From Rhodothermales bacterium (lineage in GTDB: Bacteria > Bacteroidota > Rhodothermia > Rhodothermales > JANQRZ01): 64,000 bases of DNA. The stretch covers positions 1 through 64,000 of the forward strand of contig JANQRZ010000023.1 of the NCBI GenBank assembly GCA_028284265.1, written 5' to 3'. The translations under genes and the position numbers were made by a program. This document shows, piece after piece, positions 9,244-38,704 of the stretch (position 1 is the stretch's first letter; every line of letters starts with the position of its first letter). The notes below the pieces were generated by a model. That model was given only the letters and a program-made list of their open reading frames with translations, had not been told where the DNA came from and searched no databases.

Positions 9244-10014
9244 ATGATCGTCCGCACCGACGCTGTTGTGCTCCGCGCCATTGAGTATGGCGAGACGAGC
9301 CTGATCGTCACGCTGTTCACGCGGCGGCACGGGCAGGTCACGGTGATGGCGAAGGGGGCGCGGCGGCCCAAGTCGCGCTTCGGTTCGGCACTCCAACCGA
9401 TGGGATATGTGCAGGTCGTCTATTACTACAAACCAGGGCGCGGCCTCCAGACGCTCAAGGAGAGCGCGCACGTTCAGGTGCTGCATGGCATCGCGGCAGA
9501 CATCGGGAAGATCACGGTCGGTCTGCGGCTCGTGGAACTGGTGCGCGCCCTGACCGAGGACGAGGAAGAGCACCTGCTCCTTTTCAACCTGCTTATCCAA
9601 GCTCTGCTCTGTCTCGACGACGCCACCGAGCGGGCGGACAACGTGTTGCCCCACTTCCAGCTTCGGCTGGCCGCTGTGCTCGGCTTCTCGCCGGACGTGC
9701 AGCGGGACGATGTGCTCGCGCTGCCCGATGAGGGTGGGGTGCTCGCCCTTGACACGGGAGCCGTGCTGTCACTCAACGCAGCCCCCAAGTCGGGTGCCCG
9801 CGCCGGTCGGCAGGCTCTCCGCGCCTTCGCGGTCTTCGCCCGCGCCGACCTCGATACAGCCATGCGCATGACCCTCACCGACGAGCTACGCGGTGAGGTC
9901 CAACGGCTCGTGGACGCTTACTTGCGTTACCACGTTGAAGATGCTTTCCCCGACCGGGTCCGCAAGGTGGCTGGACAGCTTGCATTGCCGACGCAGAAGG
10001 AGGCCTCCTCGTGA
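9244..10014 (+). CDS. recO: DNA repair protein RecO
   Basis: A 256-residue protein beginning IVRTDAVVLRAIEYGETSLIVTLFT, the OB-fold entry that is diagnostic of RecO, with GARRPKSRFGSALQP at about residues 38-52. The OB fold spans about 1-80 and a helical domain follows. RecO anneals single strands and, with RecR, loads RecA on SSB-coated DNA. The next gene codes for a LexA-like repressor, so two DNA-repair-linked genes are neighbours, although 180 bases with a separate promoter lie between them. Confidence 0.95.
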   Translation: MIVRTDAVVLRAIEYGETSLIVTLFTRRHGQVTVMAKGARRPKSRFGSALQPMGYVQVVYYYKPGRGLQTLKESAHVQVLHGIAADIGKITVGLRLVELVRALTEDEEEHLLLFNLLIQALLCLDDATERADNVLPHFQLRLAAVLGFSPDVQRDDVLALPDEGGVLALDTGAVLSLNAAPKSGARAGRQALRAFAVFARADLDTAMRMTLTDELRGEVQRLVDAYLRYHVEDAFPDRVRKVAGQLALPTQKEASS

Positions 10015-10098: not shown

Positions 10099-10147
10099 GC
10101 GTCTCGGTCTCGTGCTTGACTTATCGAGACGCGCACAATTATGTTCA
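10099..10147 (+). promoter_or_regulatory. Promoter with overlapping palindrome before the LexA-like gene
   Basis: A -33 TTG (10116-10118) and TATGTTCA (10140-10147) are separated by 21 bases, the same spacing as at 58429-58460. A perfect 8-base inverted repeat, GCGTCTCG (10099-10106) and CGAGACGC (10125-10132), brackets the -33 element. A dimeric repressor bound there would block transcription, so this is a good candidate operator, possibly for autoregulation by the downstream gene. The operator role is inference. Confidence 0.5.
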
Positions 10148-10195: not shown

Positions 10196-10858
10196 ATGAG
10201 CCGCAAGCAACTCACCGCCAAACAGCACACATTCCTTCAGTTCCTCGCTGAGCACGTTCGCAAACAGAAGGTGTGGCCGACCTACCGCGAGATCGTTGAT
10301 GAGTTTGGGTATCGCTCTCCCAACTCTGTCACCCAGAACCTCCAGGCGCTCGCCAAGAAAGGCTACCTCACCCGCGATCAGAACGGGTACCGGCTCATCG
10401 GACAACGCGCCGGACTGCAGCCCGGTGGCTTTCCGGTCCAAGGCGTAATCGAAGACGGAGCCTTCGAGGTGAGCCTGAGCATCGACGAGATCACGCTGAA
10501 AGACCTCTTCCCCGGTCTCGACAAGACGTTTGCCATTGCGCTCAACGGGGAGGCTGTGCGCGGGATCGACCATGCGGGGCACGGCTATCTCTTGCTGCAA
10601 GAAGGCACGGTCGGGGACGGTCACATATCAGCGGTACTGCATCACGGGACCGTGGCACTCTGCCGCGTCTATGAAGACGAAGGTGGCCTGCGTCTTCAGC
10701 ACGTTGATGGCACCGAGAGTTGGGTCGAGAATGCACACGGCAGTGTCAAGCTGTTGGGCCGCTACGCCGGGCACATCAACCAGCAGGGCCTGTTCCGGGC
10801 TGCCGGTGCGGTCTACATGGGGCACCCTCTCAACGGCGAGACCGTGACGACGACCTAA
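10196..10858 (+). CDS. LexA-like repressor lacking the autocleavage residues
   Basis: The 220-residue protein has a LexA winged-helix at residues 1-65 (LTAKQHTFLQFL, PTYREIVDEFGYRSPNSVTQ, LAKKGYLTR) and a C-terminal S24-like domain. Against E. coli LexA, the Ala-Gly cleavage bond reads Asp-Gly (GVIEDGA), the nucleophile region GMSM reads GEAV (Ser to Ala), and the general-base region VKR reads LCR (Lys to Cys). The DNA-binding half is intact while self-cleavage should be impossible, so it should not respond to RecA as a classical LexA does. The ATG at 10196 was chosen because the helix-turn-helix starts there. A strong terminator follows. Confidence 0.85.
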   Translation: MSRKQLTAKQHTFLQFLAEHVRKQKVWPTYREIVDEFGYRSPNSVTQNLQALAKKGYLTRDQNGYRLIGQRAGLQPGGFPVQGVIEDGAFEVSLSIDEITLKDLFPGLDKTFAIALNGEAVRGIDHAGHGYLLLQEGTVGDGHISAVLHHGTVALCRVYEDEGGLRLQHVDGTESWVENAHGSVKLLGRYAGHINQQGLFRAAGAVYMGHPLNGETVTTT

Positions 10859-10878: not shown

Positions 10879-10916
10879 ACGGCGTCGGTGCTTCCCTGCC
10901 CGACGCCGTTTCTTTA
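10879..10916 (+). terminator. Rho-independent terminator of the LexA-like gene
   Basis: A perfect 10-bp stem, ACGGCGTCGG (10879-10888) with CCGACGCCGT (10900-10909), is followed by TTCTTT. It begins 21 bases after the stop codon at 10858. Confidence 0.8.
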
Positions 10917-10929
10917 GGTCTCGGGTATC

Positions 10930-11583
10930 ATGCAGGAGCACACGCTTTCCGTCTATCGCACGGCTCGCTACCTCACCCTCGGAGACCCGTCGGGACCGGT
11001 GGAAGAGGTCTGGATGGCCTGCCATGGGTATGGGCAACTCGCGCCGTACTTCCTGCGGCACTTCCGGGCCATCGAAGCGCCACACCGAATGGTCGTAGCC
11101 CCAGAGGGTCTGTCGCGGTTTTATCTGGAGAACCACCAGCGCGTTGGAGCCTCATGGATGACGCGGGAAGCGCGCTTAGATGAGATCGACGATTACGTCC
11201 GGTTCTTAGACACCGTCTATACGGACGTGCTGACCCAGACTCGGCGAAGCCGAGTTCGGCTCATCGCTTTCGGGTTCTCGCAGGGTGGGGCCACCGTCGC
11301 CCGGTGGCTCGCCCGCAGCCCGGCGCTCGGAACGCCGCCTGCCGACCGGCTCGTGCTCTGGGGATCGGTGCTCCCGCACGATCTTGACCTAGACGAGCAC
11401 GCCGACTGGTTGCGATGCGTTGGCCTCACGCTCGTCGTAGGTGACCGGGATGCGTACGCCACGCCGGAGCGCATCGCCGAGCAGGAAGAGCAGTTGCGTG
11501 AGGCAGCCATTCCGTTTGAGGTGGTCCGCTTCGACGGCGAGCACCGTCTCGATACCGAGGTGCTACGCGACCTCGCTCGCTAG
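10930..11583 (+). CDS. Alpha/beta hydrolase, phospholipase/carboxylesterase-like
   Basis: The 217-residue protein has the esterase nucleophile elbow GFSQGG at about residues 116-121, a candidate catalytic Asp in GDRDAYAT (about 175) and His in DGEHRLD (about 205). An oxyanion-type HGYGQ motif is at about 36-40. Order and spacing fit the Abhydrolase_2 (carboxylesterase/phospholipase, YpfH-like) group. There is no signal peptide, so it acts in the cytoplasm. The substrate cannot be told. It stands between a terminator and a lipoprotein gene pair and appears to be transcribed alone. Confidence 0.82.
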   Translation: MQEHTLSVYRTARYLTLGDPSGPVEEVWMACHGYGQLAPYFLRHFRAIEAPHRMVVAPEGLSRFYLENHQRVGASWMTREARLDEIDDYVRFLDTVYTDVLTQTRRSRVRLIAFGFSQGGATVARWLARSPALGTPPADRLVLWGSVLPHDLDLDEHADWLRCVGLTLVVGDRDAYATPERIAEQEEQLREAAIPFEVVRFDGEHRLDTEVLRDLAR

Positions 11584-37636: not shown

Positions 37637-38704
37637 TCAGATCATTTGGTCTTGGCCCCCGGAGGACAGGGATATTTCCTCGTTTTCCTCCAACTCTTGG
37701 GCTGTCTCGAGCACGCGCTGCTGGGCTTCTTCGACCTCGCTGATGCGGACAGGGCCGAGGAGGTCGAGCTCCTCTTCGAGGGTCTGTGCCACGCGTTCGC
37801 TAACGTTTTCGAGGACTTTGGTTTTGAGAGCCTCCGGTGCCCCTTTGAGGGCAAGTACGAGGTCTTTCTGCTCCACCTCCATTAACAGACGCTGCAGGTC
37901 ACGTCCGCTAACTTTGACGAGGTCGTCGAAGACGAACATCAAGCTCTTGACAGCGCCTGCGAGGTCAGCATCTCGCTCGCGAAGCGCATCCATGATGCCG
38001 CGTTCAGCAGAGCGCGGTGCATTGTTGAGGATGTCAGCCACTTGGCTTACACCACCGCTCGCACTCCTCTCGGACCCTAAAACAGATCCCATCTGGTGCC
38101 GAATCACAGACTCGATGTCGCGGAGGAGTTCTGGGGAGGTCGTTCCCATTGTGGCGAGCCGGTAGGTCACCTCGCCCTGTTGATCTTCGGGTAGACCGGC
38201 GAGGATTTCGCCTGCTTTACGAGGATTCAGATGAGCTAGGATGAGAGCCGCCGTTTGTGGGTGTTCCAGTTCAATGAACGATGTCAGCTGGCCGATCTCG
38301 ACAGCTTGAAGGAGATGAAAGGCCGAGACCTGCATAGCTGCCTCAATTCGCATCATCACTTCTGCGGCGCGCTCTGGTCCCAGCGCGCTTTCGAGTACTT
38401 CGCGGGCATAAGGAATGCCGCCCTGTGTTACATACGTGCGAGCTAAGGAGGTGTCACGAAAGTCGATGAGCAGTTCGTCCACTAGGTTGCTGGGAATGCT
38501 CTGGAACTTGGCTATCTCGATCGAGACGCGCTCAACGGTCTCGCTGGGAAGCAGAGCCAACACCTTGCTGGCTGTCTCGACGCCGAGAAGGATCAGAAAG
38601 GCCGCGGCCCGCTGGAGGCCCGAGAGTGCAGCCAAAGGGGAAGCGGGGGTGCTAGGTGCAGCCGCCGAGGCGGCTGGTGCTCGCATAGCAGCAGTTTCAG
38701 ACAT
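37637..38704 (-). CDS. fliG: FliG, rotor switch protein
   Basis: A 355-residue protein with the three FliG domains: N (about 35-125, LSGLQRAAAFLILLG), M (about 135-220, with the EHPQTAALIL motif) and C (about 230-345). The C-terminal torque helix carries the charged residues of the stator interface (LMFVFDDLVKVSGRDLQRLLMEVEQKDL in parts), including DDL and KDL. FliG converts stator movement to rotation. Gene position between fliF and fliH is standard. Confidence 0.96.
   Translation of the reverse strand: MSETAAMRAPAASAAAPSTPASPLAALSGLQRAAAFLILLGVETASKVLALLPSETVERVSIEIAKFQSIPSNLVDELLIDFRDTSLARTYVTQGGIPYAREVLESALGPERAAEVMMRIEAAMQVSAFHLLQAVEIGQLTSFIELEHPQTAALILAHLNPRKAGEILAGLPEDQQGEVTYRLATMGTTSPELLRDIESVIRHQMGSVLGSERSASGGVSQVADILNNAPRSAERGIMDALRERDADLAGAVKSLMFVFDDLVKVSGRDLQRLLMEVEQKDLVLALKGAPEALKTKVLENVSERVAQTLEEELDLLGPVRISEVEEAQQRVLETAQELEENEEISLSSGGQDQMI

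Follow-up and report, generated by a model that had tools for sequence, protein, structure and literature searches.

A LexA orthologue without self-cleavage residues in Rhodothermales, probably a DNA-binding regulator outside the SOS circuit

What a LexA protein still does once the residues for its self-cleavage are gone, and how it would be switched, is the question raised by a gene at positions 10196-10858 of the window, the 64,000-nucleotide stretch of a Rhodothermales contig analysed here. A first-pass annotation, made from the sequence alone, had described the product as a LexA-like repressor unable to cleave itself, perhaps switched off by a ligand bound in the former catalytic pocket. 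Comparison with relatives bears out the first part of this description, in that the protein is a LexA orthologue without the known cleavage chemistry, and does not support the second. We favor, with a probability of about 0.6, the reading that it is a vertically inherited LexA turned RecA-blind DNA-binding regulator, outside the SOS circuit. The locations of the features discussed are listed in Table 1.

Table 1. Features of the lexA-like locus, in window coordinates.
Feature	Position	Strand	Basis or remark
recO	9244..10014	+	RecO_N and RecO_C; conserved upstream neighbor of lexA
Promoter-like TTGACT-N18-TATGTT of the lexA-like gene	10116..10145	+	no ancestral-type LexA box
LexA orthologue without self-cleavage residues, 220 aa	10196..10858	+	ATG at 10196, stop ends at 10858
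Winged helix-turn-helix DNA-binding domain, residues 4-69	10205..10402	+	Pfam PF01726
Recognition helix SPNSVTQNLQALAK	10316..10357	+	family A alignment; commonly SPNSVTQNLQAL in cleavable orthologues
Former scissile bond, Asp87-Gly88 instead of Ala-Gly	10454..10459	+	alignment
Former catalytic Ser119 position, Ala120	10553..10555	+	alignment; Leu and Glu in two related species
Former catalytic Lys156 position, Cys156	10661..10663	+	alignment; Cys in all three members from the window's family
Possible terminator, stem-loop then TTTCTTT, between the lexA-like and the next gene	10879..10909	+	
Alpha/beta hydrolase	10930..11583	+	weak carboxylesterase/S33 matches

The two halves of the protein fare differently in domain searches. 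The N-terminal half carries a LexA winged helix, matching LexA_DNA_bind (PF01726) with 57.9 bits where the Pfam cut-off is 23.7, and its DNA-reading helix has the form common among cleavable orthologues, in agreement with the earlier statement that the helix-turn-helix half is intact. The C-terminal half has no match to Peptidase_S24 (PF00717) in the Pfam search, and is too poor to use in the AlphaFold model, which was built from a two-sequence alignment and has a mean pLDDT of 45.8. The NCBIfam lexA model TIGR00498 matches residues 4-190 with 64.9 bits, short of the cut-off, which is 110.95, and the sole meaningful matches among PDB sequences are LexA repressors. The first-pass annotation had read Asp-Gly for Ala-Gly and had regarded the Ser (GEAV) and the Lys (LCR) as lost, and the alignment confirms all three: A84-G85, S119 and K156 of E. 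coli LexA align to D87-G88, A120 and C156, so that D-G, A and C stand where an S24 protein has its Ala/Cys-Gly bond and Ser-Lys dyad. The corresponding residues are D-E, L and C in one related species and D-G, E and C in another. A displaced Ser/Lys pair, named in advance as an outcome that would overturn this description, was not seen, as no alternative pair is conserved in the alignment of the non-cleavable clade.

We searched for orthologues in 99 genomes, mostly of the order, and found a protein of this type (family A) in most of them. In what follows, G000 is the window's genome, f1 is its family (G000, G001 and G002), and f12 is the other affected family. In an alignment of 65 family A members plus E. 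coli LexA, 56 members retain the complete set of Ala-Gly bond, Ser119 and Lys156. The remaining nine, with an incomplete set, comprise all three f1 members and six from f12 (L055 and L062-L066), among which L064 and L065 have kept the Lys and lost the bond and the Ser. Family A orthologues from another order of the same class (n = 3) have intact cleavage residues, and cleavability is thus the ancestral state. A single loss in the common ancestor of f1 and f12, rather than two losses, appears to be the simplest account, because the RecA tree joins the two families (support 96/96); they also share a deletion of 2-3 residues just after the former cleavage site. The neighborhood is conserved as well. 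Of the 65 family A loci, 51 have recO upstream in the same orientation, the gene that the first-pass annotation had correctly named as the neighbor; this conservation argues that the gene in the window is the ordinary LexA of the order and not a stray paralogue.

Family A is not present throughout the order, and its loci vary. None was found in the near-complete genomes G004, G018, G028, G037 and G044 of family f3, in which the paralogous family B described below is present, nor in one f12 genus (G059 and G063), which seems to have lost it and has a cleavable LexA of a further kind, type C. In family f4 the cleavable lexA is duplicated in tandem, with the copies adjoining (L058 and L108). A LexA fusion in G013 is only apparent and reflects a masked stretch of N.

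The pattern of selection indicates which part of the protein is still in use. There are three observations. First, constraint is reversed in the non-cleavable clade: identity in the N-terminal and C-terminal halves is 66% and 79% among cleavable orthologues, which favors the C-terminal half, but 91% and 63% within f1, and 79% and 50% within f12, which favors the N-terminal half. Second, the winged helix is 89-92% identical within f1 with a dN/dS of 0.03-0.06 (Nei-Gojobori), against 0.19-0.52 for the C-terminal half; these values are rough given the high synonymous divergence (dS about 0.6-1.5), although the contrast between the halves is clear. Third, the C-terminal halves of f1 and f12 are merely 23-33% identical to one another. 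The low dN/dS of the winged helix and the reversed constraint indicate that the gene is no pseudogene, that DNA binding is under selection and that the cleavage half has been released. It is therefore unlikely to be a relic, persisting merely for lack of time after its role went with the dismantling of the SOS circuit. The fast-evolving C-terminal half, the loss of the ancestral operator (see below), the lack of any family A lexA in f3 and its apparent loss from an f12 genus would all suit a relic, but the open reading frame is intact in all nine readable non-cleavable members, across two families, and the conservation of the winged helix is unlike drift.

The same alignments bear on a repressor switched by a ligand or by redox state, with the old catalytic pocket or Cys156 sensing a small molecule or oxidation. 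The shared Cys in f1 would fit such a sensor, and the LexA of Synechocystis, which likewise has no cleavage site, serves outside SOS (PMC4759255, PMC7567884). However, the former Ser position varies within f1 (A, L or E), the f12 members have R, G or K in place of the Cys, and little of the C-terminal half is shared between the two families. As the pocket positions are not conserved, the proposal that a ligand occupies the former pocket is not supported, and we consider a switch of either kind quite improbable.

The second line of evidence for a regulator outside the SOS circuit concerns the operator. When the regions preceding cleavable lexA genes were searched for motifs, TGTGTnnnAYATRTG emerged. 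Almost all cleavable lexA genes carry it, as do recA in six of the tested genomes and umuDC in G010, and we therefore regard it as the order's LexA box. In G013 and G053 lexA is still preceded by a sequence that resembles the box but has a spacer longer by one base (TGTGTCCTAACATATG and TGTGCCATCACATGTG). Held-out halves were used for scoring, since the motif was trained on the same promoters: held-out cleavable lexA promoters have medians of 16.5-18.6 bits, and the eight testable non-cleavable ones have medians of -0.8 to 2.3 (p from 1e-6 to 2e-4), with the same outcome when the motif was trained on one family and tested on the others, or vice versa. The ancestral-type box is absent from the promoter of the gene itself and from the recA promoters of f1, and there is no genome-wide excess of boxes in the clade over reversed-pattern controls, with exact and relaxed patterns and variable spacing; the motif derives from cleavable relatives, and a degenerate version of it could still be in use by the non-cleavable protein. 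These results lend no support to continued control of the ancestral LexA regulon by the protein.

The DNA site that the first-pass annotation had proposed to look for did not emerge, as box-pattern searches and promoter k-mers yielded neither a target gene nor an operator. No k-mers are common to the three f1 lexA promoters. A box with one mismatch at window position 38424 lies inside fliG and is attributed to chance, and TGTGCTCGCTCATGTG, identical in all nine genomes of the clade, lies in the coding region for a flavoprotein-like reductase and is not an operator. An inverted repeat, GTCTCG-N12-CGAGAC (window 10107-10130), encloses the TTGACT -35 element of the lexA-like gene and was not seen in related species. 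On the other side of the gene, the 71-base spacer has a fold z-score of -4.3, and its stem-loop was not listed by a consensus terminator scan. An alpha/beta hydrolase gene is found near lexA only in f1 and f12, which have the non-cleavable form; in f12 there are intervening genes.

The circuit itself also appears depleted. No Y-family polymerase (PF00817) was found in G000 or G001, with the reservation that the G000 assembly consists of 24 contigs at 97.9% completeness, so that a gap could hide a seemingly missing gene; recA is present in G000. The presence of recA would be compatible with control by DNA damage having been kept through degradation in trans, another protease removing the intact LexA-like protein after damage, and there is a precedent in HdiR, a LexA-like repressor whose full derepression depends on processing by Clp (PMC8565304). 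Nonetheless, with no box at recA or at the gene's own promoter, and with the usual SOS polymerases missing in the genus, little is left for damage to induce, and we regard this arrangement as very improbable.

Whether another repressor has taken over SOS control depends on the other LexA-type and S24 proteins, which are of several kinds. The S24-related proteins of G000 besides the one in question are a paralogue (family B) and one CI-like repressor; there is no other self-cleaving LexA. The check for a canonical LexA elsewhere in the genome, which the first-pass annotation had called for, thus came out as none in G000, the only other LexA-type protein being the non-cleavable paralogue. The CI-like repressor (375 aa; L004:1306-2433, minus strand; G000 C5:97806, about 34 kb beyond the window) is of the phage type, has an S24 domain that retains A-G, S and K, belongs to PHROG 4, may be RecA-cleavable, and was unmatched in the relatives compared.

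The paralogue (P0002; L001:1489-2133, plus strand, on contig C23 of G000) has orthologues in most families of the order. No family B member has the complete Ala-Gly/Ser/Lys set, although Peptidase_S24 is still matched; every readable member has Arg at the Lys position, and GDDGM or similar stands at the Ser. A nearby mraZ, the gene that heads the division and cell-wall cluster, was found at 32 loci, and at every one of them the family B gene is divergent from it. A palindrome, AGGTGAAA-N4-TTTCACCT, lies upstream of family B with more than 10 bits in 31 of 34 cases; its core occurs exactly twice in each of the G000, G009 and G032 genomes, both copies in the mraZ intergenic region and 32-41 bp apart, and once in G001 and G004, again in that region, whereas the reversed pattern, used as a control, is missing from all 12 genomes examined. 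From these features, family B appears to be a non-cleavable regulator of the LexA type, dedicated to mraZ, with the palindrome as its putative operator.

Type C, a third and self-cleaving kind of LexA, is scattered over the order (L258 and L262 in G001, L259 and L260 in G013, L261 in G039, and further loci L081, L085, L080, L082 and L084), and the identity of 73-88% between its f1 and f12 members suggests that it is mobile or has replaced the ordinary LexA. SOS control could have been handed over to this mobile protein, freeing the gene at 10196-10858. Type C proteins with Ala-Gly, Ser and Lys do occur within f1 and f12, in G001 and G013 (two each), G039, G059 and G063, and we count the two copies in G001, which is of the same genus as G000, against our preferred reading. 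None was found in G000, G002, G032, G046, G053 or G071 at the sensitivity used, however, and a hand-over accounts for the loss of cleavage but not for the present function of the protein. We consider it rather unlikely, though compatible with the preferred reading.

We thus return to the reading of a LexA turned RecA-blind regulator. RecA-stimulated self-cleavage would have been lost in the common ancestor of f1 and f12 together with the place of the protein in the SOS circuit. The strong purifying selection on the DNA-binding half implies that it still binds DNA, probably at few sites without the ancestral box, and the C-terminal half evolves fast yet below the neutral rate, as if only dimerization or some other loose requirement were left. 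The protein would be a repressor by default, its occupancy set by its amount and not by proteolysis, and we infer a functional, dimeric regulator that DNA damage does not switch. A broader version, possible but held tentatively, is that the whole lineage gave up SOS control by LexA and RecA while retaining the DNA-binding half of LexA as a constitutive regulator, blind to RecA, of a new target set, its only two LexA-type proteins both serving as non-cleavable housekeeping regulators. Non-cleavable LexA is already known from cyanobacteria, and what is new here is a case that spans a clade and in which the disappearance of the circuit can be read. The loss of cleavage can be assigned to a single branch, the missing operators, reversed constraint and missing SOS polymerases can be read in the same genomes, and cleavable orthologues in neighboring families serve as controls. 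How a proteolytic switch is dismantled while the DNA-binding half is kept is a question now directly testable. There is also a warning for annotation, as a LexA match in the f1/f12 clade does not imply an SOS response.

Three known systems and the paralogue invite comparison. The protein resembles canonical LexA (E. coli type, TIGR00498) in its full-length match, its winged helix and the recO neighborhood of its cleavable relatives, but differs in lacking the Ala-Gly, Ser and Lys, in its score below the model's cut-off and in the lack of a box at its own promoter and at recA. With family B it has in common a LexA winged helix and the lack of a complete cleavage set, although family B is another gene, divergent from mraZ, with its own putative palindromic operator and a match to Peptidase_S24. 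The non-canonical LexA of Bacteroidetes (S24, COG2932), an SOS-type regulator of the same phylum or a neighboring one, combines a phage-type penta-helical HTH with a full set of cleavage residues (PMC8565304, which does not mention Rhodothermus or Salinibacter); the protein described here is the reverse on both counts, having neither the CI-type HTH nor an intact S24 domain. The protein is also comparable to the LexA of Synechocystis PCC 6803, which has Gly-Gly for Ala-Gly, lacks the Ser and is thought to act outside SOS (PMC3091678, PMC4759255): both are LexA orthologues that have lost the cleavage bond and the nucleophile, and the protein described here may likewise bind DNA and regulate non-SOS genes, for which the strong selection on the winged helix is an indirect sign only. 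The two nonetheless represent independent losses in different phyla, and in the present case the Lys has gone too, the C-terminal half has diverged, and two families are affected.
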